Of a DNA stretch of 64,000 nt, positions 30,041-57,400 are shown piece after piece (positions within the stretch are counted from its first letter, which is position 1; every line of letters starts with the position of its first letter). The translations under genes and the position numbers were made by a program. Under the pieces are notes generated by a model. It saw only the letters and a program-made list of their open reading frames with translations. It was not told the DNA's origin and searched no databases. Source of the DNA: Dermatophagoides farinae (taxonomy: Eukaryota > Arthropoda > Arachnida > Sarcoptiformes > Pyroglyphidae); contig NC_134681.1 in assembly GCF_024713945.1 (NCBI RefSeq), forward strand, positions 2,480,001 through 2,544,000, read 5' to 3'.

Positions 30041-31111
30041 ATGGGTTTCGATCAAACACGTTTTGAAACAAAAATCAGTGATGAATTCCTATGTCCAATT
30101 TGTCTGGATGTATTGGATAATCCTGTTTATTTACCAAATTGTGATCATGTTTTCTGTAATGAATGTATTAAAAATTGGATGATGATGAATAAAAGTCAAA
30201 CCTGTCCAATGGATCGTAAACCATCGGATCCAAATCAGTTTCAGCAGCCATTACGTTCGTTTTGTAATCTATTGAATCGTTTGAATATACGTTGTCAATA
30301 TAAAACTTGTAATAGATTCATAAAATTATCCGAATTACAACAACATGAACAGAATTGTTTCCAGAATCCTGATAATCTTAATAAAGAAATCATCTGTCCA
30401 GGTAAGTGTATGGTGGCAAAAACATAGACATGATAAAAATTGATAATTTTCAAATTCTAGATTGTGATTCACGGATAAAAATCACTGAAAATGGACACAA
30501 TTGTTTGGATCATCTGAAATCGATGATGGAAAAATTAACAACAAAAAATAATCAATTAGAAACAATAATAACAAAGAAAAATGAACAGATTCAACAACAA
30601 CTGAAAACGATTGAAACGACGAAAAAAACATTTCAAAAGGAAAAATTTGAAATGGAAAAAACAATACAACAATTACGTGAAGAAATTCAAGCTAAAAATG
30701 ATGTACTTGAATTGGCTAATATTAATATCAATGATAATGATAACCAAACAAACAGTTTACAATCATCACCATTATTATTACCATCACCATTATTACCATT
30801 ATCAATGATGAACAATAATAATGAAGCTTCATCATCAGCCGATATAATATCACCACGTAGACCACGTAGACATGCACCACCGGCACCGCCACCGCCATCA
30901 TCATTGAAACCACAACCGCCACCACGTCCATTATCAACAACTTTGCCAATCAATGAAATGAATAGTTTATTAATTAATGATGAAATGTCGAATGATCTTA
31001 AATCAGATTATAATTATAATAGACCAAAGTTAATGAATTTTAAATCAATTAATTATAAATTATATTATAATAATGGTAATGATAATAATCAAGAGGATTC
31101 ATTATCATCTG

Positions 31112-31142
<31 letters not shown>

Positions 31143-32043
31143 TTCGTTATCATTACAACCACAACCACAATCAACAACAACAACAACTCCAACAACAACA
31201 ACATCGACATCAACATCAGTATTTGATATGTCACGTGTTCGACAGTTTTTAAATCAAAAAATTACACTTATTGATCCGATAACACATTATAATCAGATGA
31301 ATAATAATTCAAAAAATTTAAATGTTCATCGTACATTTGCTGCGGTTGATCGACGTCATTTTTATGGTACAAATGCAAATATTGATAAAATCATTTCGAT
31401 AGCCGCTGGTAGGAAAAATTCTCATTCATTTCCATTAAAATATGAGATTCGTCTATTGGAATATATTGGTATGTGTTTCCTGTTATTTGTATTTTCTATT
31501 GTTCTTGTGTCCTGAATTTCTGAAATTTTTTTCCAATTCAATTTAGAACCATTTTTACGACGAAATTCACGTGTATTAGACATTGGTTCCGGTATGGGTC
31601 ATTTAACTTGTTGTCTAGCAAATCTATGTCAATTTGTAGTCGGTGTTGATAATGTCAAAGAATTGGTGACAAAATCACAGGAAATTGTGGCGAAAAATTA
31701 TCAAAATTTACAACTTTGTTTCTGCAAAACTGATGGCCGTAATGGTTGTGAAAATTATTCACCATATGATCTAATACTGATCGAACCAATCATTCGTAAT
31801 GGTACTGTACCAGAGAAATTATTTCGACAATTAAAACCAAATGGTTCAATTGTGGCCATTGTACGTCTTATGGAAGAACAACAACAGCAGCCACAATTAC
31901 AACTACCACAACAATTACAACTACAATCGAATCGATTTCAATTAGTACGATTCATTAAAATGAATAATGGACAAATAACGGTAGAAATTCTTTGCAATGA
32001 TCATGATTGGCTCGTACAGAATCATAAGGATAATTTTCATTGA
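30041..32043 (+). CDS. NRDP1-like RING E3 ligase fused to a protein-isoaspartyl methyltransferase (PCMT) domain
   Basis: Three exons: 30041-30401, 30461-31468 and 31547-32043. The introns are 59 and 78 bp, both phase 1. The product is 621 residues. Residues 1-58 (MGFDQTRF..) match the NRDP1/RNF41 start, with a RING of C18, C21, C34, H36, C39, C42, C55 and D58. A TRAF/NRDP1-type zinc-finger segment follows (about 85-135), then a coiled coil (about 139-200), a disordered Pro/Ser/Thr linker and, from about 395, a PCMT fold. That fold has AAVDRRHFYG (414-423), the SAM-binding motif VLDIGSGMG (466-474), the acidic Asp491, the DGR motif (519-521) and LKPNGSIVAIV. A Gln-rich insert sits near the end. 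NRDP1 normally ends in a USP8-binding domain, which is absent. The single 1,008-nt middle exon encodes coiled coil, linker and PCMT start, so the fusion does not rest on a gene-model join. The expected role is ubiquitination and/or methylation or recognition of isoaspartyl proteins (inference). An in-frame ATG at 31228 could start a free PCMT form. Confidence 0.9.
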
Positions 32044-34345: not shown

Positions 34346-35404
34346 ATGGCTTCACCAATTGATTTCGTATCCGGATGTGTCGGTGGCGCTGCTGGCGTTA
34401 TTATTGGTCATCCATTCGATACCGTTAAAGTGATCATGCAGACAAGTCAACAACATATATCGGCCATGTCTGTCATACGTAATTGTTCGGTAGATATTTT
34501 TTTCTCCTCACTATTTTAATGAAAAATATTTCAAGGAGAAAATCATATCTTTTATACCGTTTTTTCTATTTCTTCTTCATAGATATCTTCACTTTATAAA
34601 GGAATTAGGGCACCATTAACCGGATTAGCAGCGATAAATGCTGTTGTATTTGGTGTATATGGATCAGTGATGCGTTTCTGTCCTGGACAATCTCGACAAC
34701 AAGATCTTACTTGGAGCGGTATAGCCGGCCTGTTTGCCGGTATGACACAATCTATAATAAGTTCACCAATGGAATTGGTTAAAACACGTGCACAATTAAA
34801 TTCAATAACCGAATGGGATTGTATGAAACGAATCCTGCGAAATGAAGGTGGTCTACGTGGATTATATCGTGGATTCGGTATAACACTTGCACGTGATTGT
34901 CCAGCATTTGCAACTTATTTTTTCACTTATGAATGGATGATTGGTAATCTTCAACAAAAATCCAAAAAAAATCAATCGGCATTAGCAACAGAACAGCCAT
35001 CTACATTTGACATGTTGGCTGCTGGTGGTACTGCAGGTGCATTATCATGGTTAGTTATCTATCCATTAGATGTGATCAAATCCCGTATACAGGCAGATAA
35101 TCGTTATAAATCTGTTTCACATTGTTTACGTGAAATAATCGATCGTGAAGGATTCAATGTATTGATGCGTGGATGTAGCCCTACATTAATACGCGCATTT
35201 CCCGCAAATGGTGCTACATTTGTTGTTGTAACGTGGACATTATTTGCATACGAAAAATATGTTAATCAATCAACAAATCATTTATTTAGATCTAGCAATA
35301 TTCGAAGTGTCACATCAACCACTGCTGCTGCTAATACAGCTGCAACAAAAACGTCGACAGCAACAACAAAAACCAATGATAAATCGTCATTAATACAAGA
35401 ATAG
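34346..35404 (+). CDS. SLC25A29: SLC25A29-like mitochondrial carrier (basic amino acids)
   Basis: Inner-mitochondrial-membrane carrier with two exons, 34346-34489 and 34583-35404, joined in phase 0 across a 93-bp intron. The product is 321 residues. The three-fold carrier repeat is complete by its signatures: PFDTVK at 23-28, PMELVK at 110-115 and PLDVIK at 209-214. GVIIGHPFD, INAVVFGVYG, SPMELVKTR, GGTAGALSW and RAFPANGATF favour the SLC25A29 group, which in mammals carries arginine, lysine and ornithine. SLC25A45/47/48 are the next best options. The loop between the first signature and LYKG is about 8 residues shorter than in the vertebrate protein and lacks its usual acidic-Gly motif. In-frame stops in and next to the intron rule out a longer exon. 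The C-terminal tail is a Thr/Ala-rich extension. The start has good context (AAAAAATGG). Confidence 0.9.
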
Positions 35405-36733: not shown

Positions 36734-39700
36734 TTATACAAATGTATATTGTATTGAGCTACTTCGTTGTTGTCGTTTATTATTTTTATCACCATTAATG
36801 GTTCCATTAGTAGTGGTATTAGTAGTAGTTATTGTGGTATTTGACTGATCATCAACATTTTCAGCCACCAAAGTTGTTTGGTCATTATTATTGTTACTGA
36901 TATTTTCATTGTTGATTTTTGACAATTTATTCATCATTTGATTACCATTTGTTTCGATATTATTATTCAATGTTGATCGTTGTTGTGAATGTTTAACTTG
37001 ATATGATGATGAAAAGCTAGTCATTTTATGGTTACCATTTCCATTTGTAGCAGCAACAGGTAATGATTGATGATTGTCCATTGTTTGGCCACCATTATTT
37101 GCAATATATTGATGATAATGATTGTTTTTAATGATTGTATTTGATGATTCTGAACCATTTATAAATGCTATGGATGATGAACCCATTGGCGATGTTTTGA
37201 GATCGTTATTTGATGATGATGACATTGATGATGAACATTGATCAATTGTATCACTTGTACTTGAACTATTAACTAATGCTGCAATTGGTGTTGTTGAACA
37301 TGACGATGATGGTGTTAGTAATGAAAAATTATCTGCACTTTCATTCAATGATGAACGATTAAATGTTAAAAGTGTTACTGGTTTTATTTGCTGACTAATT
37401 GATGAACTATGTATTGATCCTGACGAATCATTTCGATTGCGATTTCGATGCTGCTGCTTTTGTTGTTGTTGTTGTTGTTGTCCGTTATTTCCATTCATCA
37501 AATTATCATCCAATTTTTTGCTATTTAAATCACAATCAATCATATCTGTTGTTGTTGAATATTTTCGATATCCATTGGAATCATCATCATGTTTAGGTAG
37601 ATAACGTTCAATATAATTATTACGTGAAAATTCCAATTTTGTACCAAGTTTTATTTCTAATGGTGGACTTGGCAACATCATATTTACATCATTTTCATCA
37701 TCATGATTTTTTTCACTATTTTTATCTACATTATCAGTTGTAATCAATAATGGCAATGTTTCATTATTTTGGTTGTTGTTGATGGAATCATTTCGTATTT
37801 TCGATTTAACATATGTTGCATTCAATAATGGATGTGGTGGTGAATACAAATGATGATGATGAATCCGTTGATTACTATTGATTGAATGACCGTCATCGTC
37901 GTCGTTGTCATCATCATCTTCAACATCAACATTATCTGCACCATTAACTATATTTGAATTATTGAAATTATATTGTACAACATGTTGTTGTCGTTGTTGT
38001 TGTTGCTGCTGCTGCTGATCATTACTACCGGCTAGATATAAATCCGATGTATCCCAATGATAGCCTTCGGTTTGTGTTGAATTTGTCACTGTAAAATAAA
38101 TAAAAAAAAAATTTTAATCAATTCATTGATTATTGGACTTTTTGCAACTTACCATTTGAATCAGATGAATCATTAAGTGATGTACGTTTTCGATGATGAG
38201 GATGATAATGATGATTACCTGTTGATGCTAGATTTAATGAGAAATAATTTAAAATCTTTGCAAGTAATCAATAAACAAATAACTTACAGTGAATATTACC
38301 AGATATTTTGGAACGTTTTTTATTCTTTTTATTATCTTTATTCGAATTAATACTAATCATCGATGATGATGATTGATGTCTAATTGTTTCAATCATTTGT
38401 GGTGATACACTTGCAATGGGTGCATTTTTCTTGAAATTTTGTGCATAATCAATAATACCGATAACTGGTGTTTGTTGATCATAATCTTCAGAATTCAATA
38501 CACTATTACAATCGGTATTATTATTATTGTATAATTCTTGATAATTTTGTGCCGCGGATTTAATCTGATGATGATGATTGATTGTAGCTGCAGCTATATT
38601 ATTCGACATATTTGTCATTTCAAAATTATTATCCTTATTATTAATCATAGATTGATGATCACAATTTTCATGATATAACGTGGATGATGTACGATTCGCT
38701 GGTTTTGCCGACAACAATGATTCATCAGCTTCACTATTTTTTTCTGGTTTCGGTTTCTTTTTTCTTGGTCGATTACAACAAGTACAGCAAAGTACAATAA
38801 AGAATGCAACGAATACGAGAGCAATAAGTATAATGATGACAATCATCATTTCTTTATATGAAATATGAAAATATGATTCAATCAAATTGCTTGTCAATAG
38901 ACTGTGGCCATTACATTTGATGGTTGAATTTATTGGACAAACACAACGGAATGTTCCAGGTAGATTGATACAACTTGCTGATGCATGACAAGCCGGTGTA
39001 TTGAGATGACATTCATCAATATCTTGATCACAATATAAACCATGCCAACCAGCATGACAATGACACTTTGGCCCAATAGATGTTTCTTCACAAACACCAC
39101 CATTTTGACAATAATTAGCACTACAATGATGTGGTATTTGACAATTAATTCCAGCATATCCTGAACGACATTGACACCGATAACATTGTGGTGAATGATT
39201 TTGTTCACATGCATCAATATCCGATATGCAAATACCATCATTTTGACATGGTGATATACTACATGGTAATGTATCGATTTCACAATGAATGCCACGATAA
39301 CGATGTCCTGGACATTGACATACGTATGAGCCATTCGTAAGATTTTCACATTGACCCCCATTCATACATGGCTGGGAACGGCAAGCGCCAATATTTGTTT
39401 TGAATGAACAACTAAATTCAACATTGGCCAATGTTTTCAATATAACGATTGCTGATCTCGATGTTTTATGAAAAGGGATCTGTTGTCCATTGAATAAAAT
39501 ATTATCTAAACAGCCATTAAATCCATGCAGGATTTCTTCATCACCAACAATACTTTCCGAATTGGATTTAACATCGCCACCAAAATAAATATCTGATTTT
39601 AAACGATTACATGACATCGGTGCACCTGGTGCAAATCCACCACTACGATATTTTCGATCCAATATCAATGATGCTGTATTATCTTTACGTTCGACAATAA

Positions 39701-42700
39701 TTTCATGCCATTTTCCATCACTTACAAACAGATTATGTACACGTATCAAACCTTCGCCTTCACCACAATCAAACCGATATTGTATATAACCGGCAACAAT
39801 TTCTAATATAATAAACGATCGATCAGTCTGTTGGGTTAAAATACGCGCACGTAATTGTTGTGTACGAAATCTGAATGATAATTTATCGATTCTTTTCACA
39901 AATAAATATCGTACATATGATCGCCCATTAAATGACATTGGATTAAATTCCTGATAACAAACAAGTACATCACGTTCATTCGATTGACATGTTTCAGCAT
40001 TCTGATTACAATCGACACCAGATTTCCCAAATGGACATTGACAAATATAACCTAATGATGATGATACTGGTAAACATTCTTTATTCGCTGGACATGGATT
40101 ACGATAACATTCATTCACTGTTTCATTACAAAATTGACCACCAAATCCAGGCATACAAGCACAACCGAAACGAAATTCATGATACGGTGATACGAATGTA
40201 AATTTTTGACTAACAACATATGTGATTTGATTCTCACTCAAATATAATTCTTCACGACATTCACCATTTTCACATTGAATATCTTGACATTGTGATCGTT
40301 GTGATAATTCATCGAATGATAATCCAATTTGATTTTCGATAAAATATTTATTTTCCATCAGTTTGGCACGAATCGTTTCACGGCTTAAATGATGCGATGG
40401 ATGATTATCATCATTATCATTTGTTGTTATGGCAAACATTAAGCTCACTGAATCATATTGTTCATTATTATGTCGACGACGTTTTTGTGTCGCTACAGTC
40501 GTGGTCGATGATGAAATAACTTGTTGAACACTAAGTATAATCACATCATTTGTGCGAACTTTGAATAATGTTTTCATTGATCGAATAAAATTTTTCAAAT
40601 AATTATTAAAAAAATCTTGCACTCTTATCGAATAGATTTTGATGACCATTGCATTTTCAATCATCGATTCAGTAATGGCAATCACTTCAATTTCAATCAA
40701 ACCCCATGATTGAAATTTTTCATCCGATACAGTGACATTAATATGATATTTACCAATATCTAATCCAGGTAATGCACGTATAAAACCTTCATTCATGTCG
40801 ATGGCAAAAATATTCTGATTATCATCAGGATTTGCCAAACTATATGTAAGTTTATCGAATGGATCATCATCGGTGGCATTAATTTGACCAATCAATCCAC
40901 CTGGGAAATGATCCAATGAATTTATAGCAATCGATAATGGATGTACTTTTGGTGGTGTTTTTGATTCTTGTATAATCAAAATATTCAGCCATCCAATAGT
41001 CGATAATGGTGGATTACCGGAATCGGTTACTTTGATAACAAGATTATATTCCGATTGATCTTGATGGCGGAAAACAGTATTTGTATGCAACGTACAATCA
41101 ATGATAATGAATTTTTCATCTTGATTGCCTTCAACAAATTCAAATTTGAATGGTCCAGAATTCAATGAACTATCTGGATCATGAATGTTGAATTCAAAAA
41201 ATTTATATCCAATCGGTCGATTTTCTTTCAAATGAATAGTTTGATTAATTTTATCAAAAATAGGTGCATTATCATTATAATCGGATATTTCAACATTAAT
41301 CAATACGGATGCAGAAAATGGCACCGGTTTTCCATTGTCCGAACAAAATACTTCAAGTATATATGATGATAACATTTCACGGTCTAGTTGTTTGCCAACA
41401 GTCAATATACCAAGTAATGGTTCAATATTAAATTCTTTATAGGAAAGATTATCATTCACAAATGAATATGTTAGATTGGCATTTGAAGGTGAATCACCAT
41501 CACTGGCAACAATTTGATAGATTTTATCGCCAATCTGTGCATCTTCACGTATGACAATTTCATATGAACGTTGAGAAAATTGTGGACGCATATCATTAAT
41601 GTCATTAACATTTATTAATAGATTAACTTCATTCGATAATGGCGGTATGCCTTGATCTTTAGCTTCAATGATAAGAAAATATTCATTACTTTGTTCATAA
41701 TCAAGATCATTTGCCACTCGTATTGATCCGGTTTTACTATCAATAGCAAATGTATCGTTAATATTTCCATTGATAATTTTATATCGTATTTCAGCATTAA
41801 TGCCAGTATCTTTACTTGTTGCAAATATTCGTATCACTTCAGTACCGATAGCAACATTTTCATCGATATTGGCTTTATATGATTGCATTTCAAATTCCGG
41901 TGCATTATCATTAATATCGGTTACATTCACTGTAAATGATGTTGTTGAATTCAGCATTGGCATATTTGAATCATAAGCCATAATCGTTAGATTATAGAAT
42001 GAACAAGTTTCACGATCTAATGTTTTAGCCAAACGTATAATGCCACTATTTTCATGTATAAGAAATTCACCAATAGAATCAATCAGTTCATAGGTAATCT
42101 GACGATTTAGTCCAATATCCAGATCGATGGCACTAATTTTTCCAAGTATCATACCAACAGGTGAATCTTCCGGTACATGAACTGAATTCAATTGCATTAA
42201 AAATCTAGGTGGTTCATCATTAATATCACTGTATGAAAGAAAAAAAATGAGCTTATCAATCTGGAAAATTTATTAAAACTTACCTTAGAAGGATTTCAAC
42301 ATTGCTTGTACAATGCCAATCACGATTCTGATAATCATATACGATAACATTGAATAGATAGATTGAATGATGTTCGCGATCAAGTTTTGCATTCGTCTTT
42401 AAACGGCCACTAAATGCATCGACAACGAAATGATTTTTATGATCACCATCAAGCACAAAATAAAGTTTAGCATTTTCAGCATCATCTTGATCGACAGCTT
42501 CCACTGTAAGAATATGTGTTCCTATGGGAACCGATTCACTAACCATTTCAACATATTTTGATTTCACACAAATCGGACCATTATCATTTACATCCAAGAC
42601 ATCGATTAAAACTTCAGATTCCGTATGATATTTTCCATCCGTAACCAATATTTTTAATGAATATTGATCAATCATTTCACGATCGAGCGATTTATTTACA

Positions 42701-45700
42701 TAAACATCACCAGATGATGATATGGCAAAATGATGTAAATGGTCACCTTTTGATATATAATAACGAAGTTCAGCATTCATATCTGGATCATCAACTTTAA
42801 TGCGAAGAATAACGGTACCAAGAAAACTATTCTCATAGATTGCTGCAATTGAACGAGCTGGTTCAATTACAGGCGGATTATCATTAACATCATAAACAGC
42901 AATATAAAGTGATGTAGAATTTTCATGTAAACCATCCGTTATATCAATCTGTAGATTATAATGTTCCATTGTTTCTCGATCTAAATTTTTAGTCAATGAG
43001 ATCCAACCAGAATTTTCATCAATTCGAAATGTGCCATCATGATCATTGCGTATACTATATTTCAGGGCATTATTCAATAGATCAATATCATTATCAAGTG
43101 CTGTCATTTTGAAAATTGTCGAACCAATTTCTTGATTTTCAGCCAACGAAAGATAATAGGATGCTGAATCAAAATAAGGTGTACAATCATTTTCATCCAT
43201 AATATTGATAATAACATAGAAATAATCCGTCACATGATAGATTTTATCATAAACACGTAATGCTAAAATATGTTTAGATTTCATTTCACGATCCAATGGT
43301 TCATTCACATAGATCCGTCCATCACTATCGATGCGGAATTTATTTGAATCTGAACGTTGATCTAAGCCAACAATTTCGATATCAACATCTTTATGATAAT
43401 TAGCTAGATTCAGGCTTGCCACAATTGAATTACGTTCAATATTTTCTTTAACAAATACTTCATATAGGAATGCATCACGTTTATGATGAACGCATGAATC
43501 AACAATTTCGATGGTGATTGGTACAACATTTGAAATTAATCGTTTTTGAATATTTTTGTGACCACCAACGTTACGAATAGTGTTTGGAACATTGAAAGCT
43601 TTCACAAAGAATTGAATCTTTTTTCCAGCCAATTGTGTAAGATTCTTACGAATATAAATATAACCAGTATCGGAGGCAATTTCAAAATATTCATTCATAT
43701 GATTCATCATTGCTACTGTTTCAAGATCATTTACATCATCATAGATTGAATATTGAATAGCGATATTATCCACATCTTCATCATCATCGACAGCTAATAC
43801 GGATAAAATGGTTGAATCAACAGGTACATCTGTGCATACAGAACATTTATATTCATCAACAATAAATCTTGGTCCATTATCATTTTGATCGATTAATGCA
43901 ATACGTATTGCAGATACACCAATACGTTTACCACGATCTTGTGCACCCAATATTAGCCAATAAAATTTATCATCTTTCTCATAATCTAATTCCATTTTTA
44001 ATCGTATTTCACCTGTAGTTTGATCGACATTGAAATATTTTCTTCCATAATCATTCAGTATATGATATTCAATTTGGCCATAAATATTATCATCATAATC
44101 AGTGGCATTTACGGTTAATAATGATGTGCCGATTGGTTGATTTTCACCAATAGCAACATTATTCAATATACGATTAAAACGTGGTGAAAAATTATTTGTA
44201 GGTCGAATTATGATTGAATACGTTTCTGTTGATGAATATATGCCATCCGTAATGGAAATATTCAAAACATAATGATGTTTAGTAACACGATGATCTTGAC
44301 GATGATGATAAAGATAACGTGAATTTTTCAAATTCCTTACATACAATGAACCAGTCATTTCATCAATTTTGAATGCCATATCAGCACCGGATATTATTTT
44401 ATAACGTAATTTATCTTGATCACTTTCATCTGCATCATAGCCAATGATTTTTGTTACAAATCCATCATTATCAATATCTTCATCGATTGTTGTTGTAAAT
44501 GTTGCTGGTAAAATTGGTGCATTATCATTCACATCCAATATTTCGATCCAAACTTGTGCTGTTGATGTCAATTGTACGGAACCATAATCATTGACCATTA
44601 TTTCGAAATGATAAAATGATTCAGTCTCATAATCAAGACTATTTTTCAAATAAATGATTCCATCATCGGGCGATATATAGAAATGACTTTTATTCATACT
44701 CATTCCCATTATATGATATTGTAGCCTGGAATTTGCACCACTATCCGGATCATAAGCATCGACACGTAAAACAGATGAACCGACCATCAAATTTTCCGGT
44801 ATTGAAACATTGTAATAAAATTTTGTAAACATTGGCTGATTATCGTTAATATCATCGACTATTTAATAGAAAAAAAATTAAAGAGAGAATTTCGATCAAA
44901 TTAACCATTACATGATTGAAACATCATTTTCGAAATTTTTTCTACCTTTAATAAAAACATTAACTGTGGATGATGTATCCGAAATGGCATCTGTAGCCGA
45001 TATAAGTAAATTATATTGGCTGGTAGTTTCACGATCCAATTTTTCCACCACACTTATCGTACCTACATAGATTGAATCAAAATCAAATTTAGTGAAATGC
45101 GATAAAAAATGTTTTATATATGTAAAAAACAAGAGAAAAAAATTTTCATCGCCTCAACACTCACATAATGTATTACTCATCGTTGATAGATCTGTGATAA
45201 TTTTTTTTTTTTTTTTTTGGTTTTTGCCCACCCGATGAATTTTTTTTTTAAGTTTAGTGTAGGAAAATAGTAAGGGAGAAAATAGCAGTAGTAGTAGTAG
45301 TAGAAAATGGTAATTAGATGTATGTAGTGAAATATGTGACAAAAAAAAACCCAGATAACCCAGATAGTTAAAATAGTGAAAAAAAACGATGATTATTGAT
45401 GATGATGATGATTTTTATATGGACGATGAAAAGAATGACAAACAACAAAAAGAAAATGAGTAAATTTTAGATTAGTTGAGAGAAAGAGAGAGTAAATGTA
45501 AATTAGTTCAATTAGATGTGTGTGTGTGTGTGAATTGATTGACATGAAAACAAAAACAGAAAAAAACAAAAACAAAAAACAAAATAAAAACAAAAACAAA
45601 AACAAAAACAAACCTGTATTAAAATCAAGTAGAAATTCATCATTATCATTTCCAGCTTCAATCTGATAGAAAATTTGTCGACCGTGTGAACTTTCGGCTT

Positions 45701-48700
45701 TTATTGTTAAAAATGGTAACATTGGTGGATAATTTTCATTGATTGTAATATTATAATATGATTGTGTGAATAATGGTATGCCACCAGTGATCATACGTAA
45801 TGTAACGTTTATCATTGAATTCATGGATGGTTGACCTATTAGTAAAACGGAAATGAAAGCAAAAATTTGGCAAAAATTTGACAATCAAAAATTTTTTTTA
45901 CCTAAATCTTTAGCCATAACAAGTAATGTATAGTTAACAGGGTAATTGTTATCACCATCATCATTGAAATCATTGTTGTTGATTGTACGGGCAATGGTTA
46001 AATGACCGGTTATTGTATTCAATGCAAATAGATTATTTGGATCACCAGAAACAATTGAATAATGTATTTTCCCATTAATACCATCATCCATATCGACAGC
46101 TTGAATTTTGCCAATAAGATCACCAATATTAGAATCAGAATTGAAAACAAATTGATATGGTAAACCAACAAATTTCGGTTGATTATCATTAACATCATCA
46201 ACATTGATTTCAATTAATGTTTGTGCAATTCGATTACGAATAGAAATCGATTGAACTTCAATAGCTAATTCAAATCTTTTGTTTTGAAATAAAATAAAAA
46301 ATAAAATTGATTCAACAGTTGTAAAAATGAATAAAATAAAAAAACACATACTTTGGTGTTGTCTCACGATCAACCGGTATTCCACGATAAAGTATTGCAC
46401 CCGAAGTACGAGCAATTTTAAATAGTTGTGTTGGTGTCATAATTCGAAATATTAAATGTTCATGAAGTTTATTACCATCAATAGTTGGCATTAAAATTGT
46501 GCGTAGATTTGATGAATTTTCACGTATCGATGCTTGATAACGTTTTTGTCGGAAACGTAATGTACTTATGGGCATTTTCTTGACATTAATTATTACTTTT
46601 GCTTCGCCGGTAAATTTACCATCACTAACAGTGACTACAAGTTCATGAATACCAAGTTTAATATCCGGTTTCGTAGTCATAATCTGACCTGTTGTTGAAT
46701 TGATCCAGAATTTCTTTTCTTCATCATTCAATTTTTGCGTGGACTTCAATTGATAACTGAGATCTGGATTCCAATCACTTGAGCTATCGATATTTTTATC
46801 TGGATTAAAATCACAATCAATAGCGGCAACTTTGGTGATGATAACATTTGAAAATGTCGGCAGAAAAAGTGTTGCATGAAATTTATTCACAACAAATACA
46901 GGTGGACAATCATTTACTGGTAAACACCGAATACGAACTGTTGCATCATCGGACGCTTTCAATTTCGGTGTGCCATCATCAACTACAGAAACGGAAAATT
47001 CCATCTGTTGATGTTTATCATCACAATCCAACATACGTATCAATGAAATGGCACCAGTACGTGGTTCAATACGAAAATATTCACGAGCTTCATGTTCAAC
47101 AATTTGATAGACAAGATTATAGAATGAATCCTTATCATAAGCACGAATAACTAATGGTGAACCAGATTCAGTTTGAACAAATGTATTGATTGGTGTTGTT
47201 TCAAAAATTTGTCCCTCGAATATAGTCTGATTCCAATATGGTGCATTATCATTGATATCAATCACATTGACAAATACTTTGGTTGTCACATTTGCACCCA
47301 TTAAATTTGATGCTTCAATTGTCAGCTGATATGCCGGACAATGTTCATAATCTAATGATCGACGAACATATAGCTCACCATTATTAACATTTATAGCAAA
47401 CATTTTATCCGGATCACCACCGATAATGGTGAAAAAACTGGTCTGTTTATTAATCATCTTAACAGATATGATAACTGTGCCGACTTTTTCATCTTCACGA
47501 ACTTCAACCACATAATTTGTTTGTTCAAATTTTGGTGGTGAATTATCCGGTAATGTAATCAATATATGTACATTTGCAGTATTACTTAATGATGGTTGAC
47601 CTTGATCATTGGCTTTCACCAATAAATAATATTCAGATAATTGGCGAAAATTCAGCTGTTTCGCAACAAATATGTAGCCAAGATCCGTTTCAATGTCGAA
47701 TGTTTGATCAATATTACCAGAGATGATTGTATAATTAATTTTAGCATTATTTCCATAATCAGTATCGAATGCTTGTACCTGTAATATTGAGGTGCCGATC
47801 GATGATGATTCCACAACATTTGTCTCAAAATATGGGGTAATAAATTGCGGTGATTGATCATTCACATCAATTACATTGATTATAACTTTAGTGAATGCAC
47901 GTTGATTTAATGAACGGCTATGTTTACGACCGGATCTTGCTTCCACCACCATTACATGTTGTTTGCCTTGTTCATAGTCTAATCGATTTTTGATCCGAAT
48001 ACGACCAGACCAACTTTCCACTTCGAATTTCGTCAATGTTTCCGGTGATTGCGTTGAATATATTGAAAATGATGTCTGATCATTTAAATCAGTAATGACA
48101 TTCAATTTAAGTACATCACTACCAACTGTTATGTTTTCAAATACATTAACAACATATTTTTCTTGTCCAAATGACATAATGTCATCAAAATCATTCATAA
48201 TATTCACTAAAATATTAATAGTAGAATTATCTTGACCATCGGTTGCCAATAATGTCAGATTAAATTGACTGATAAATTGATTACGTAATGATTTTGCCAC
48301 TACTAATGCACCAGTATCAAGAAATGCAAATGAATCATCAACATTACCATCAATAATATGATAACATAATCGATCATTATCATCATCAGATGATTTGATC
48401 CACGCAGCCGTATAGCCAACAATTTCATTACGATTAATCATTATAATTGAATCAAATGGTTCAATTGATGGTTTATGATTATTCTCACGAATATTCACTG
48501 CCAATACACGTATTATAATATGTACAGTTGATGTAAATGGATTCGGTTGATTACAATCAGCAATTCTTACGACAAAATCATAACTTCCTTTTATTATCTT
48601 ATCTTTTGTTGGATAAATATGTCCACTATTCGTGTCAAGATGAAAGTATTTTTTTTCATTCCCTTCAATTATTTCATATGAAATCGTACAACGACCATCA

Positions 48701-51700
48701 TCATCATCTTGATCATAGGCAATAATCTGACAAACTGGTAATCTTTTATCAATTTGTTCACCATACATATAACAACGATATGTATTCATTACTGATTTTG
48801 GCTCAAATTCATTCACATCCAATATATTCACAATGATTGGTGTGCGTGATTTTAAAAATGTTGTCATCATCATTTCATTATGATTCGTATGATTATTGTC
48901 ATTAATGATTGGTTCCATTACATCTAAATCCAATACATATCTTGAAATGGTTTCACGATCTAATTTATCAGTCGTTCGTACGTAACCATTATTATCAATT
49001 TCAAATGGCACTTGTCGATCACTAATATTGAATAAAATTATATTCGATCCATCCATTGAATGATGATGATGATGATTGAAATCTTGGTCATATGCCTCAA
49101 TCTGTAATATAAGACTACCGATTGGAATATTTTCCAATACATTTACTGTATAGAATGATTCTTTTGTTATTGGTGGCATATCATTAACATTTTCAATTTC
49201 AATATATAATTCCAAGAAACTTGCTAATGGCACTGCAGCACGATCTTTGGCAACAATTGTAAGCCAAAAATGTGATGAAATTTCACAATCCAATATTACA
49301 GCCGTATAAATATTTCCATTCGAATCGATTGTAAATCTACCAAGACCATCACCACCAATAATTTGATAAATTAATGGCAGATTTGGATTATCCTGATCAT
49401 ATGCTGTTACTTTGGTGACAAACGAACCGATTGGCATATTCTCTTTAATGGTTGCATTATCATAGAAATTCGGAAATTTCGGTGAATAATAATTTTCATT
49501 TACATCTTCAATTTCAATAATAAAATATGTACTTGTTGATAATGGTGGTTTGCCTTCATCCGTGGCCGTAATAGTTAGATTATAAAGTTGAATTTTTTCA
49601 TAATCCAGTGATTTATGTAGACGAATATTACCAGTCAAATCATCAATAGAAAATGTATTATTTTCTGTATCAAATATCGTATAACGTATATCACCGGATT
49701 CATTTTCATCCTGATCAAATGCTGATATACGCATCAAACGTGTACCGATTGGTATATCTTCACGTACTTTTAGAAAATATGAACTTTGAAAAAATAATGG
49801 TGCATTATCATTGATATCTAATGGAAGAAAAAAAACGATGTCAAGGTTATTAGCCATATTTATTAGCAGTTTAAGAGCAAAAACAAATGCTTAAACTTTG
49901 ATAAACTTACCGAGAACTTGTATGGTTATCACAGCAGTTGTTGATAATGGTGGTTTTCCTGAATCCGAAACCGTTACATAAAGAATATATTTATCGATTG
50001 TTTCACGATCCAATTTTTGTTCTAATCGTAATGTACCATTATGAAGATCAATGGAAAATGTATCCGCATGTCCATCAATAAAATATTCAAGACGAGCATT
50101 TTCTTCTGAATCTTTATCTTGTGCATAAATCATACCAATTATTGTTTTTGGCTGTGTTGATTCCGATATTTTAAATACATAATCATCAACATCAACAATT
50201 GGTTTATTATCATTAACATCTTCAACGATGATTGTAATGGTTTTATTCGAACATTTTTGATTTTCCACACATTGATCACAGACAGTGATGAATAGTTTTA
50301 ACTGTTTGATTGTTTCATAATCTAATTGTTCAATTAGATATAGGTTACCATCATATTGACCAATTTCGAAATAGATTTTTTTATTATTATCCAAATAATC
50401 CAAATCATGTTCAATTTCTTGTATATTCAATGACCATACAAGTGTTGAATCAAATCCTGTATCACTATCATTTGGCAATTATTGTCGCTACTTTTGTTCG
50501 TATCGGTGTATCTTCACGTAATCGTATTTCATTTGATTTATCAATAAATATTGGCGAATGATTCTCATGATGATGATGATGATGATGCGGAGATTTTCGC
50601 AATAATTGAATGGCATCTTTCTCTTCCGGTTGTAATTGTATTGAATCCAATATAAATGAAATTCTATGCTGTTGTTTCGATTTATTCCGTATACCAGAAT
50701 CAATACATTGAACATTGATATTTCGTTGCTGTTTCAATGTCGATAAACGTTTAGATCGAATATCTTTTCGTCTTTTGTTGTTATTTTTTGTTGTTGTTGT
50801 TGTTGTTGCTGTTGAATGTGCATTATTATCATCATCAACTAGAACAATGTTTATTGGATTTGTATCGGAAAAATAATGTCCATCCGTCGCTGATGCTGTC
50901 AAGGTCCATAAAATTTTATTATTATTGGCATTGGCATTGGCATTCATACGATTGTTCAATGATTTTATCTCTTTTTTTAGATTACAAATCAATTCAAGTT
51001 CACCAGTTTTTTCATCCAAACGAAAACAACGTTCAGCTTCTGGTTGTAATTGTTGTGTGAATAAACGATAATAAATTGTATTATTATTTTCGTAATTCTT
51101 GTTTTTATTATGATCATTCAATCGATCTAGATCAATTGCCGATAATTTCAATAATTGTGTGAATGGTTTTGTTTCAACTGGTAGATATATCGTACAATTA
51201 ATACGTTCAAATTGTGGACGATGGTCATTTGAATCGACAATACTGATATTGATTGCCATTTGATTTTGTCGCCGGAATGGTTCACCCCAATCCGATGCAC
51301 GTATAAATAATAGATAATTATGACGCATCAATTCAAAATCAAGTGGTTGACTGATATAAATGTCACCTTTATATTGATCAATAGCGAATGGTAATTGATC
51401 AACATCCGGGCCATAATACAATAGTTCATATGTTACAAATCGATTATTCGTTTCTGAATCATAATCATCAGCTTCCACATGATATATCACACTTGCATTT
51501 GGTTTATTCTCTTCAATCGATAATTGTACAATACCATTTGGTGGTATATCGAAATTTCTAAATTGTGGATAATTATCATTAACATCCATAATATCTATAA
51601 AGACCATTGTGGTTGCAATTTGATTCATTTGATGTTGTGCACGAACCACTAGACGATATTCGGCTACATTTTCACGATCAAGTCGACTACGTGTATAGAT

Positions 51701-54427
51701 GATACCATTAACAGTGATACCAAATGTACCATTTTCATTACCATTTATGATTGAAAAATGTATTGAATTATCTGTAGTCGATGATCGAATATCACTTAAT
51801 TTTCGTGAGGTTTGTGTTTGCAATTCTGTATCTAATTGATGATATTTATCATGCATACCACCGCTATAAGAAATTTTGAGATCAACTTGCAAGACTTGTG
51901 TGCCAATCAATGAATTTTCATACAATTCTTTATAATATTTTTCTGATGTAAATTGAAAATTTAAACTGAAATGTTCATCTAATGATATCTGTATGGTTTT
52001 ATTCGCTACACGTTGACCACAATCACGTGCTTGTACAATAAGCTCAAACATTGATAATGATTTTGTTGATGACAATGATGATAATTGAAATAAATCAGCG
52101 ATAGATTTGATCAAATGTAAATTATAATCATTTGATGATTGATTTGTAATACGAAAAAATGATCGTTGATTACCATCAATTATATTGAATGAACAAATTT
52201 GACCATAAATACCTAGATCTTCATCACTAACATGTATTATGGCATAAATCGATGAACCAATCAATTCATTGGGTGTGGTGGATAATGTACTATGTTGTTT
52301 GATTGTAATCAATGGTGCATGTCTATTCACTGGCTTTATACGAATATTTACTTTTGTTTTAGATGATTCAATTGTCTGTGATGAAAGATGGTGGCCACGA
52401 TCGCGTGCCAATATTGTTAGATTGACAATAAATTCTGTTAATGCTGTCGTTGTAATAGTGTTTTCATTTGTCGATAATAATTGATGTAGATATAATGGGC
52501 GTGTATTATAAATAATGCCCAATGTTGGATGTATGGCAAAATAGATGCTCTCATCAGCCAGGCTATAGTAAATTTCACCATTCAAACCAATATCTGGATC
52601 AATGGCTGTCACTTGTATTAGATTCGTTTCTAATGGTACATCTTCATAAACATCGATATCATAGTTTTTTTCGAAAAATATTGGCGATATATCATTACAA
52701 TCCAATACGGTTACGGTGACATTACATTTTGATTTAAAACGTACAGCTTTATTGTGTTCCGAAGTGATTGTAGCTCGTACACGAAGTTCATATTTAGCTC
52801 GATTTTCTCTATTCAATACGGCATTTTTATCATGTCTAACACGAATAAGAAGAAAGAAAAAATTTCCAACATGATGATGATCGGCACGAAATATTTTATC
52901 CGGATCACCAGCAACAATTTTATATCGTACATTCAATGCTGGATCCGATATATAAATGCCCATTTTTTCCATTGATGTTGCATAAATTTTCGACAATGAA
53001 TTTTCCGGTATCGTAACATTATAATTGGTACGTGTAAATTCAAAATTAATACGATGATCAATTTCTTCATTATTCATATTTATTTTACTATCCAACGGAT
53101 CATTTACCATAATAGAGGTTGTGGCATTGTTTTGCATATTGGTTGACGAAATAGTAGAGAAATCATGATTATTAATGAATCGATTATTCGGTATTAAATT
53201 TTCAATGTCATTATCACTAATATGGTTAATGTTTTCATCATCATCATCAGCTTTAGCTGTCGTACTAGTCGTCGTTGTCGAAGTGGTCGTCGTTGTTGAT
53301 GATGATATCGCAATTATGTCATTTTCAGCAACAGGATCATTATTATTATTATCATCATCATCATCATCATCATTAATATTGATTGTCAAATCATGATTTT
53401 GTTGAATTTTTTCCAAATTATTCAATGATAATAATTTGTTTGTTGAGCTTTGTAAAACATTATTGATATCATGATCATCATCGTCATTAATATTCGATTC
53501 ATTATGATGATCTTGTTTTTGTTTTTGTTGTTGATGATGACTTAGATTATAATTGATTTTTGATGAATTTTCATCATCATGATGAATTTCTTGATGAGGA
53601 TGATTGTCATCGGTAAGAATTTTGTTTTGAAACAATTCTAAATTGATATTATCATCCCTATTATCAATGTAAGTGTCAGTGTCTGTATCGTTGTCGTCAA
53701 TATCATCATCATCATCGTCGTTGTCGTCAACATCATCTACATTCACATTATCATTATTATTGATGCGGTCATCGTCGTTTGGTAATAAAATTGACCGTTC
53801 ATCATTTTGTTGTTGACCATCATTAGCATCAATATCATCATCAGCATCGTTATTATTATTATTATTAATGTCGAAATTATTGAATGTCGATGATAATTTG
53901 ACTGTTGTAAAATTTTTATGACTACCGTATGATGACCGTATTTCATGATCATGATGATTGACATTCGTATCAGCAGTAGCAGTAGCAATCGTAGTATTTA
54001 TAATGGTCATGACAATAAATAATAAAAATAAAAATGTTTTCCACATATTTTTCATTTGATTAGAATGTGGATTATGATTATGAAATTTTGATGACTTGAA
54101 ATGTGACGGTTTTCCCTTGGTCAATAAACAACAACAACAACAACAACAGCTGCAGCAGGTACCAAAACAACAGGAACAATTTGTTTTTATAGTTGAATAT
54201 TTACATTGAAAATAACTTAAAGACTTAGTTGATTGTGGTGACGGTGGCGATAATGAGATCATTGTTGATTTATCATTTTGATTGTTGTTGTCGTCGTGGT
54301 CATGAATTGATTTAATTTTTTTAATTCTTGCTCGTTTACGATTTCTTAGATTGATTATACATTGATCATCATTTGAATGGCAATTTGTAATTTTAGTCAC
54401 AAATTTTTCTGAATGAACAGGATTCAT
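36734..54427 (-). CDS. kug: Fat-like giant cadherin (kugelei / FAT1-3 orthologue), interrupted by one frameshift
   Basis: Large adhesion receptor that in flies organises planar-polarised epithelial migration and tube integrity. Exons: 49911-54427, 46352-49817, 45902-46275, 45614-45835, 44946-45062, 42284-44858, 38288-42228, 38153-38227 and 36734-38088. They total 16,642 nt, one more than a multiple of three. The extra base is at 50470-50473. Without it, the chain gives about 5,546 residues. Order: 124-residue N-terminal extension, signal sequence (MKNMWKTFLFLLFIVMT, ATG 54055), about 300 acidic Asn/Asp-rich residues, 34 cadherin repeats (my count, equal to the family number), two EGF, one laminin G, four EGF (the last calcium-binding, DIDEC), a membrane helix near 38800-38870, and a cytoplasmic tail with EGYHWDTSD as in vertebrate FAT proteins, ending TFV, a class I PDZ ligand. 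A single laminin G domain separates it from Fat/FAT4. Introns are 55-93 bp except one of 551 bp. The start could be 54427 or 54055. Confidence 0.95.
38153..38227 (-). other. kug: 25-codon exon in the Fat-like cytoplasmic tail, possible cassette
   Basis: A 75-nt exon bounded by phase-1 introns of 60 and 64 bp. It encodes a His/Arg/Ser-rich segment ending in SDSSDS-like acidic serines. Skipping it would keep the frame, so it could be an alternatively used cassette. Confidence 0.75.
45063..45613 (-). other. kug: Long intron of the Fat-like gene
   Basis: At 551 bp it is several times longer than the other introns of this gene. It lies inside cadherin repeat 21, between phase-1 ends (..NTG and GTISVV). 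It contains A+C-rich (AAAAAC)n repeats next to the donor, a GT run, a TAG triplet run and a T18 tract. No coding exon is seen. Confidence 0.8.
50470..50473 (-). other. kug: Frameshift site in the Fat-like gene
   Basis: On the minus strand GCC AAA is followed by TGA TAG TGA, three stops in a row. Moving one base (+1) restores A-x-DSDTGF, the conserved calcium-binding AxDxD start of a cadherin repeat, and the next 195 residues continue cadherin repeats 7 and 8. No intron can replace the shift, because coding similarity is continuous across it. Confidence 0.85.
54128..54157 (-). repeat. Cysteine-run tract encoded by a TGT repeat in the Fat-like N-terminal extension
   Basis: A near-uninterrupted TGT/TGC run encodes CCSCCCCCCC upstream of the hydrophobic signal sequence. 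It is translated only if initiation is at 54427 rather than 54055. Confidence 0.7.
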
Positions 54428-57400
54428 ATTTGATTTGATTTGATTTTTCAATCTTTGTTGGAATTAAAAAAAACAATTTTCAAGTTAATTCGGAATAGCC
54501 AAGAAAAAAAACGTATATCAATTAAAATACAATAGCATTAAGCTCGTGTCGTATCCAGATAATAATAATGGTGATGATTGATTAATGAGGATGATGAAAT
54601 AGAACGGTGGCCGAAAAATTGGTTAAATCATAATTTTTCACGCCTCATTCACAATATACGTATGGACATCTGGAAATTTAGTAATAAATCATTTACAGTT
54701 TTTTTTCTAGCATTAGCCACTCAAAAGACATGATGATGATGATGATCAAAATTGATGATTCATTGTTGTTGTTGTTGTTGTCGTTGACATTTTCATTAAC
54801 ATCGTCATCATTTACATATATTCGTTGAAAACTTTTTTTTTCATCATTTGAATCAAGTATACTTGTTCAAAAATGGCTGTGTTTATTTTTTCACAAGAAA
54901 AAAATCGGTCGTTGATGATGATCCGAAAAACAGATACCAAAATAATAAAAAAAAACGATGGCGTGACACAATCACGATAATGATGACCACGAGATTATTA
55001 TTTTCATGGTAATCATAATCTATCAATCTATTGTTTGGAGAGAGAGAGAAATAGAAAGAAAAAAAGTTATTTTCAATAAGAATTTTTTTTTAATATTCTG
55101 TATTCTACATATTAATCAAGTGCTTGCTTGATTGCGTGTTCTGGATCACTGGAAAAAAAACACCATGATCCATCACACACCCATCGCGTTATCACATACC
55201 TCTATATATATGTCAAATGATTCCAAAAAACACAAGCCTTTTTTCCGTCAACAGTGATAATTCTTTAGCTATTTTTTTTCGTTCACTAAAATACAATTAT
55301 AGTCGGTCAGCTCCTTTTTTCATTTTGGTGACAAATTTCACATATCTAGATATAGAACGAACAGAACAGAAATATGAAAAAAAAACAACAATTTAATATC
55401 ATATTCATAGAATTATTCACGGAAAAAAAGAGAATAAAAAAAAATTAGAATTTCCATCATTATCATTATCAAGAATTTAGCCGTCTGATATAGAATGTGT
55501 TGTTCATTGTTAAATTCTTCATTCGTTCGTTTAGTGATTCGTTTTTTTTCTGCATTGTGATTCAAATACCATTTCAAACCAATCGATCGTTAGAGAGCAC
55601 AATAATATAAATTGATACTTTGTATGGATGTCCAGAGATGAATAAAAAAAAAAGATGACGGAATCAAAATAAAATAAATGAACAACAATTTCATTTTTCT
55701 TTCTGTTGTTGAAAACATGAATGAATAACCAAAAATAAAAACATTGTATTCCATCATCAATGGTGTATATATCGGGAATGAAAAGAATACAGGATGTCAT
55801 TTTTTGTAATATGTTGGTTTTTGTGTGTGTGTGTGTGGCCAGACTAGATAGATATTAATCATTCAATTCATTATATACTGGCACAGCCATAACAAATGTG
55901 AACAAAAAAGTTATCCAATCCAATGAAGATTGTTGTTGTCAACACACACACACACACAAACAACAGATAAATTACCAAGAATCTTCTTTTATATTTTTTT
56001 TCTAGACGAAAAAAAAATCAAAGAATATTCATCAAAACATAAAAACACGCATTGGGCAGATTGGATTATGATGTATGTTGCGAAAAAAAATTTCTTGTTT
56101 AAAAAAAATGTTTGTCCGTTGTTTTATGCACAGAAAAAAATGATTAATCGTCGTCCGTTTTTTTTTTTTTTTTGCTTAATTTGTTTTGCTCACTGTGTGT
56201 GTGTGTGTGAATCAATCAAAAAAAAAAGCGGAAATTTTTTTTTTTAAATAATTTAAACTAACCATAGATCCGTGATGGATGCACATGTTTATGCACTCAC
56301 AACCAATCTGTTTCTACGTTACTATAAATGAAAAAATTTGTTGTTTTGAGAGTTAGAGCAAAAACGAACGAACGAATGAATGAAAATTTTTTTCATTTTA
56401 TTCATTTTTTACTATTTTTGATTTGAATCCCGTGTTAGTTGTTATTACATTGTATTACTGAATTTGAACAACGATGATGATGATGATGATGATGATGTTT
56501 TTAGATTGAAATCTAGAGATCAGATCTGGATATGAATGTTTAGTATTACATCCTTTACAACAAGGGAAAAATGAAAATTCTGAATATTTAGATTTGGTAT
56601 TCATTTGGTACAAGATTATTCATTGAAAATTGTTTTGCATTGCTTTGCTTTGCTTTGCTTTCCATCTATTTGTCTCTCGGGAGCCCAAATCATATTTGTG
56701 CATGCATTGATGATGATGGATTACAAGAATCGATCACATCATGATCATCGATGACATTCATCATCATCATCATCATCATCATCATCGTGCTAGGAATCAA
56801 AAATGCAAATCATTTTCAATTGAAATGAAATACTAGAAAAAATAGGAAAAAGGAAAGAATTTTGATTTGATAAAAGAAATTCCTTTACGAATAAAGTGAA
56901 TTCTCTCACTCTTTTTCTCTTTTAATGGAAGGAATCCGACGAAGAAATTCAAATTCAAATTTGATCAAACAGAGAAAATATTTATAGCACATCATCCTTT
57001 AACTTTTGATTTGTAAACTTGACTTCTGATACCACATCAGAATCAAGTCGAAAAAAATGTAGAAAAAAAATTATGGAAAAAACTTTGAAAAGAATTTTGA
57101 ACAAATAAAATCATTTTGTACAGTACAACAAATATATCATGAATCCATAACCAATCTAAACAACAACTACAACGACAACAACAACAAAGAAAAAAGGAAA
57201 ATTTGGTTCAAACAAACAAACAAAAAATACATGTAGTTCCAATAGTCAATCGAATGAGAGAGAAAGCAAAAGAGATTGTCATCATCATCATCATACAAAC
57301 ACATTGATGATGGTGATGATGATGATGAATGGCATTTATAACAACTACCACTACTACTACTTAATCGATAATGTTTAGGCATATACAAGTAATGAATTTT

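Follow-up and report, generated by a model that had tools for sequence, protein, structure and literature searches.

A Dermatophagoides farinae gene encoding an NRDP1-type RING head and a PCMT-family domain in a single chain

Structure and integrity of the fusion gene

The window, that is, the whole 64,000-nucleotide stretch of the Dermatophagoides farinae genome that was analyzed (contig NC_134681.1; G000:C5:2480001-2544000), contains a gene of three exons on the plus strand that encodes a single protein of 621 amino acids. At its N terminus, an NRDP1-type RING precedes two zinc fingers; a coiled coil and a low-complexity linker then lead to a PCMT domain of almost full length. Exons of 361, 1,008, and 497 nt are joined into a coding sequence of 1,866 nt whose sole stop codon is the terminal one, and no ATG precedes the start codon at 30041 within its stop-to-stop frame. 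Both introns are of the GT...AG type and in phase 1. The original prediction had placed an NRDP1-like RING/zinc-finger N terminus, a coiled coil, and a PCMT domain in one frame at 30041-32043, with the coiled coil, the linker, and the start of PCMT on a 1,008-nt middle exon. The spliced three-exon model reproduces these limits exactly, the chain is open over all 621 residues, the domains are recovered by Pfam matches and zinc ligands, and the middle exon is open throughout. The features of the gene, numbered by position in the window, are the following.

30041..30401, plus strand: exon 1, with the start codon, the RING, zinc finger 1, and C119 of zinc finger 2 (open frame; GTAAGT donor at 30402; Pfam RING)
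30092..30220, plus strand: RING finger, residues 18-60 (Pfam PF13923 and PF00097; ligands; alignment with mite NRDP1)
30293..30358, plus strand: zinc finger 1, C85, C90, H102, and C106 (alignment with the heads of mite NRDP1, L012, and L013)
30402..30460, plus strand: intron 1, 59 nt, GT...AG, phase 1, within zinc finger 2 (30395-30504)
30461..31468, plus strand: exon 2, with C122, H133, and C135 of zinc finger 2, the coiled coil, the linker, and the N-terminal part of PCMT (single open frame 30406-31515)
30505..30729, plus strand: coiled coil, residues 136-210 (heptad test)
30730..31227, plus strand: low-complexity linker rich in Ser, Asn, Pro, and Thr, residues 211-376 (composition)
31309..31468, plus strand: N-terminal part of PCMT, with the altered loop SHSFPLKY at 31420-31443 (Pfam on the spliced protein; alignments)
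31469..31546, plus strand: intron 2, 78 nt, GT...AG, phase 1
31547..32043, plus strand: exon 3, with the Rossmann core of PCMT, the C terminus, and the stop; motif I GSGMG at 31585-31599 and DGR at 31732-31740 (Pfam PCMT)

Other genes are apparent in the same window. Downstream of the fusion gene and on the same strand, a mitochondrial carrier frame occupies 34583-35404, and a frame for a Rhodopsin-family GPCR with a long Asn/His-rich N terminus lies at 541-1878 on the minus strand. Several very long open frames fill 38268-54463 on the minus strand; they look like one FAT-like cadherin gene, and a Pfam search confined to 38271-42269 identified cadherin and laminin G domains.

The introns of the fusion gene interrupt its domains. 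Intron 1 separates the ligands of zinc finger 2, of which C119 is encoded by exon 1 and the other three (C122, H133, and C135) by exon 2, and intron 2 divides the PCMT domain; exon 2 between them is one open frame that leads from the zinc finger through the coiled coil and the linker into PCMT. Because both introns are intradomain and exon 2 is open, the RING and PCMT parts cannot be assigned to separate genes unless domains are broken. A frame of 1,008 nt stayed open in none of 5,000 first-order Markov sequences generated with the dinucleotides of exon 2. Exon 3 by itself scores 82.2 bits against the Pfam PCMT model, compared to 93.8 bits for the spliced protein, so that the end of exon 2 contributes 11.6 bits, as expected if exons 2 and 3 belong together. 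The DNA of the gene has one full-length place in the genome. An artefact, in the form of neighboring genes or an assembly join, is extremely improbable: a further in-frame ATG at 31228 would fit such an explanation, but among five donor patterns sought in exon 2, the single match was GTTTG at 30503, and the contig measures 5.4 Mb in an assembly that is tabulated at 265x with data from PacBio, Illumina, and Hi-C (available part of PMC11074847). Two adjacent genes and mis-assembly are rejected on account of the position of the join inside the open exon 2 and the intradomain location of both introns. The fusion is confirmed at the gene level and is known from the sequence of one D. farinae assembly; the attribution to "mites" in the original prediction was too wide, given that one species and one assembly were examined. 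In keeping with this species, a group 2 allergen frame of the genome differs from Der f 2 (chain 1ahk) at one of 120 aligned residues and agrees less well with Der p 2. Three other D. farinae assemblies exist, according to the part of PMC11074847 at hand.

Two features of the gene bear on its possible transcripts. Exon 2 contains an acceptor-like CAG at 30836-30838. If the intron 1 donor were spliced to it, 378 nt would be skipped without a frameshift; the resulting possible isoform would be short of the coiled coil and of most of zinc finger 2 but would still have the RING and PCMT in one chain. When the exon 2 frame is read through intron 2, a single TGA is encountered at 31513-31515, after which the frame is open to the end of exon 3. 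Intron 2 has a length divisible by three, and with this TGA, retained-intron transcripts would therefore stop just before the methyltransferase core.

The NRDP1-type head, the coiled coil, and the linker

In the spliced protein, the RING match (zf-C3HC4_2, residues 18-57, E 3e-10) is above the Pfam cut-off, and all eight RING zinc ligands are present with cross-brace spacing (C18, C21, C34, H36, C39, C42, C55, and D58). Both zinc fingers likewise possess 4/4 ligands (C85, C90, H102, and C106; C119, C122, H133, and C135). The succession of a RING and two zinc fingers is that of NRDP1/RNF41, as seen from the alignment with mite NRDP1 and with two other NRDP1-like heads of the same genome, L012 and L013. 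The fusion RING shares the aspartate end C-P-x-D-R with mite NRDP1 and L012; in L013, the corresponding end is C-P-x-C-R. Residues I20, W46, P56, and R59 of the fusion occupy what we take to be the E2-contact and linchpin positions. Identity of the head is 55/140 to mite NRDP1, 56/139 to L012, and 43/142 to L013, and L012 is also the nearest head in the genome at the DNA level (76% over 138 nt).

NRDP1 normally ends in a USP8-binding domain, as the original prediction had noted; USP8_interact (PF08941) does not appear among the 20 Pfam families that match the fusion at E ≤ 0.001. The ordinary mite NRDP1, at C7:3228014-3229079, carries this domain (PF08941, 182.3 bits), and because it is found elsewhere in the genome, the fusion is an additional gene rather than NRDP1 itself. 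L012 (G000:C4:5978727-5979155, minus strand) is an NRDP1-like RING/zinc-finger protein of about 200 residues in one open frame. It differs from the fusion in its hydrophobic, perhaps membrane-spanning end and gives no PCMT match; from the length of the hydrophobic end, it is perhaps a membrane-anchored ligase. In L013 (G000:C2:7296294-7296653, plus strand), a polyQ stretch comes after the RING head, the third of the NRDP1-like type, and USP8_interact gives no match. The number of such heads seems to have grown in D. farinae.

The hydrophobic fraction at the a and d positions of the coiled coil was reached by 36 of 20,000 shuffles. The low-complexity linker that follows is 166 amino acids long, and its DNA has many low-complexity matches across the genome. 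Its coding score is positive in its own frame, but because a reverse-strand frame outscores that frame in the first half (0.642 vs 0.375), the score is no proof of coding. A proline-rich, basic stretch at 30850-30933 (SPRRPRRHAPPAPPPP...PPPRPL) is presumably of the kind that SH3-like domains bind.

The PCMT-family domain and its relatives

PF01135 matches residues 404-596 of the fusion over positions 16-206 of its 210, with 93.8 bits (E 1.6e-26; cut-off, 20.3 bits), and exon 3 is also matched by generic methyltransferase models (Methyltransf_31, E 5.5e-10). Among solved chains, human PIMT comes closest (E 1e-13), with identity to the fusion at 61/216 residues and to the ordinary mite PIMT at 137/223; between the fusion and the mite PIMT, 54 of the 218 aligned residues are identical. 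The ordinary PIMT is located at C2:4696047-4696993 (PF01135, 259.2 bits) and could cover the repair task. A search of the whole genome with PF01135 yielded nine matches in six places: one is the fusion, four come from the one ordinary PIMT gene, and four are weaker. Three of the weaker ones (L006, L007, and L008) were judged by eye to be other methyltransferases, namely, TRMT2-like, DIM1-like, and TRM61-like; the fourth is on C9. A protein query with the fusion tail found only the fusion gene in the genome, and a scan of viral contigs for relatives of the fusion gave 22 pattern matches, with no relative among them.

The AdoMet motifs are retained. In human numbering, these include G85, G87, and G89 of motif I as well as D141 and G142; position 109 is D, the same as in human PIMT, and P165, L168, Q171, L172, and G176 of the later core are kept as well. 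Conservation was measured against 85 reference PIMTs, of which 6 are solved chains and the other 79 prokaryotic loci (from 284 confirmed loci, 80 were retained, and the intron-bearing L038 was then left out). L038 (JAODMH010000227.1), a contig from a Microbacteriaceae bin, carries an apparent intron-bearing PIMT of eukaryotic type; because this PIMT looks eukaryotic, the bin probably has eukaryotic contamination. Among 63 columns conserved in ≥90% of the references, the fusion retains 28 and the mite PIMT 50, the mostly archaeal references having cost the ordinary mite PIMT conserved columns too. From the 11 conserved columns within positions 56-67, only S59 remains in the fusion. The losses comprise T57, I58, those of the conserved columns that fall within 60-67, P181, G183, V213, P214, and L215. 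Residues 57-59 and 212-216 of human PIMT form the putative isoaspartyl site, according to the available part of PMC8275801. In these segments, T57, I58, V213, P214, and L215 are replaced, and S59 and the F at 212 are retained, with the placement of the loop uncertain. The altered loop SHSFPLKY lies roughly at the place of TISAPHMH; the phmmer alignment pairs SFP with SAP, which keeps the Ser and the Pro, in what is the least certain part of the alignment.

The fusion was also compared with each relative in turn. Of 26 columns invariant in seven non-fusion sequences, 15 are retained. When each of the seven was left out, 0/26 columns were lost by the mite PIMT, 3/29 each by human and fly, 15/41 by Plasmodium, 5/31 and 6/32 by two archaeal sequences, and 11/31 by E. 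coli, which was given without its N terminus; on the matching sets, in the same order, the fusion loses 11, 13, 13, 18, 14, 16, and 16. The count of lost columns is not decisive by itself, because divergence alone can break invariants (Plasmodium 15/41 vs fusion 18/41). The place of the losses is decisive, because Plasmodium and E. coli both retain TIS in the loop. The NCBI equivalog model for PIMT, TIGR00080, scores the fusion at 67.9, below the cut-off of 159.05, and the mite PIMT at 223.5, above it; the other PIMT equivalogs do not serve as tests, because the ordinary mite PIMT also falls short of NF001453 (159.3 vs 188). By these comparisons, the domain looks altered, with the AdoMet motifs kept and the putative isoaspartyl site largely replaced.

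In a tree of 19 sequences, the fusion, the eukaryotic PIMTs, and a fragment of PCMTD1 were set apart from the prokaryotic sequences with a support of 93. Within this tree, the fusion pairs with the Plasmodium PIMT (77) and not with animal PIMTs, and it stands apart from PCMTD1 with a support of 66. Its branch is very long (3.67), and the pairing with Plasmodium is taken as a long-branch placement and is not leaned on here. Because of this branch length, relaxed constraint is possible. A bacterial origin of the PCMT domain is unsupported, the closest solved relative being human PIMT and the tree placing the fusion on the eukaryotic side (93). An origin from a PCMTD gene is also unsupported: the domain is no closer to PCMTD than to PIMT, with human PIMT the best match and PCMTD1 (9oma) absent from the 49 chains listed at E ≤ 10. 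A 118-residue PCMTD1 fragment gave no match in the genome, either to a PCMTD gene or to ordinary PIMT; because the query missed the ordinary PIMT of this genome as well, this blank is weak with respect to a PCMTD gene. No SOCS family was identified in the fusion by Pfam at E ≤ 0.001, and the last 64 residues alone matched no Pfam family at E ≤ 10.

Possible roles of the fusion and comparison with known systems

The original prediction viewed the protein as a quality-control factor for age-damaged proteins, a view weakened by the replacement of most of the putative isoaspartyl site in a domain that keeps its AdoMet motifs. A chain in which RING and isoaspartyl methyltransferase are both active, so that age-damaged proteins are tagged or repaired, would be consistent with the nearly whole-length PF01135 match of 93.8 bits, with the retained AdoMet motifs, and with human PIMT as the closest solved relative (E 1e-13). 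However, positions 56-67 and 213-215, which overlap the putative isoaspartyl site, are largely replaced; TIGR00080 is matched at 67.9 against a cut-off of 159.05, compared to 223.5 for the ordinary mite PIMT; and PCMTD1 provides a precedent for a PCMT domain without detected activity (available parts of PMC11514484 and PMC10798966). Such a repair enzyme is distinctly unlikely. It is unlikely, though less so, that the domain is a working methyltransferase that has changed its substrate, for instance, to the ligase or to a partner protein: retained AdoMet motifs with changed substrate-side segments are the pattern of changed specificity, and generic methyltransferase models match exon 3 (Methyltransf_31, E 5.5e-10), but the sequence names no catalytic residue or substrate. 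That the gene is a fast-decaying or lineage-restricted fusion with little function is very unlikely. The very long branch, the low-complexity linker, and the fact that the fusion is known from one genome only point in that direction; against it, the three exon frames are open with GT-AG splice sites, and the zinc ligands and the glycines of the AdoMet motifs are retained.

The reading favored here, to which about an even chance is given, is that of a single-chain RING E3 in which the PIMT-derived domain binds substrates or senses AdoMet, making the protein a counterpart of PCMTD-CRL5 and not a repair enzyme. Because the AdoMet motifs are kept and most of the usual isoaspartyl site is lost, a substrate-binding or AdoMet/AdoHcy-sensing module is the most likely role of the domain. 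In this single-chain E3, E2~ubiquitin would dock on the NRDP1-type RING, dimerization would rest on the zinc fingers and the coiled coil, and the flexible linker would give the C-terminal PIMT-derived domain reach. That domain would bind a substrate or protein feature, or else sense AdoMet/AdoHcy, and so aim or gate the RING; its putative receptor role requires a ligand. The protein would then correspond, within one chain, to the vertebrate assembly of PCMTD1/2 with CUL5. A more specific version is possible and is offered tentatively, namely, a RING ligase with its own PIMT-derived, AdoMet-binding receptor, independent of the vertebrate PCMTD-CUL5 route and aimed or gated within the chain by a protein-damage mark or by the AdoMet state.

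PCMTD1 raises the question of why ubiquitin ligases should be coupled to a PCMT fold. If the proposed role is true, the fusion would couple the two a second time and independently, within one polypeptide of an arthropod with a small genome, which would point to selection for the coupling as such. The fusion is also a compact protein both halves of which can be assayed together. No RING-PCMT fusion is named in the titles and abstract starts of the matches listed in the literature searches; the earlier statement that none is described holds for these, and absence from print is shown only that far. The search returned no paper with both "protein-L-isoaspartate" and "Dermatophagoides," and "PCMT domain" was absent from the matches listed. 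The main text of PMC12105342 is without "isoaspart," "PCMT," and "NRDP1," and the available part of PMC11074847 is without "isoaspart," "ubiquitin," and "methyltransferase."

Three known systems invite comparison. With NRDP1/RNF41, the fusion shares the MG[FY]D..RF start, the C-P-x-D-R end of the RING, and two zinc fingers, but it has a PCMT domain where NRDP1 has USP8_interact (PF08941). With PIMT/PCMT1, it shares a near-full PF01135 model, GSGxG, the acidic residue after the second strand, DGR, and LKxxG, whereas the TISAPHMH loop, the HVGAAAP motif, IPVG, and YVPL are replaced. PCMTD1 is reported to bind AdoMet and CUL5/ELOB/ELOC, with isoaspartyl methyltransferase activity undetected, in the available parts of PMC11514484 and PMC10798966, the detection having failed in one study (PMC11514484, in part). 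The parallel with PCMTD drawn in the original prediction stands insofar as a PCMT-family domain is coupled to ubiquitin ligation in PCMTD1/PCMTD2 as in the fusion; it is weaker for isoaspartyl recognition, PCMTD1 being reported without detected activity, and the domain shows no special kinship to PCMTD. PCMTD carries a SOCS box and acts together with CUL5 (PMC10798966, in part), whereas the fusion has its RING in the chain, at the N terminus, and PCMTD1 retains the HLSAP loop that is absent from the fusion. By analogy, the mite protein may work like PCMTD-CRL5, although it is not itself a PCMTD.
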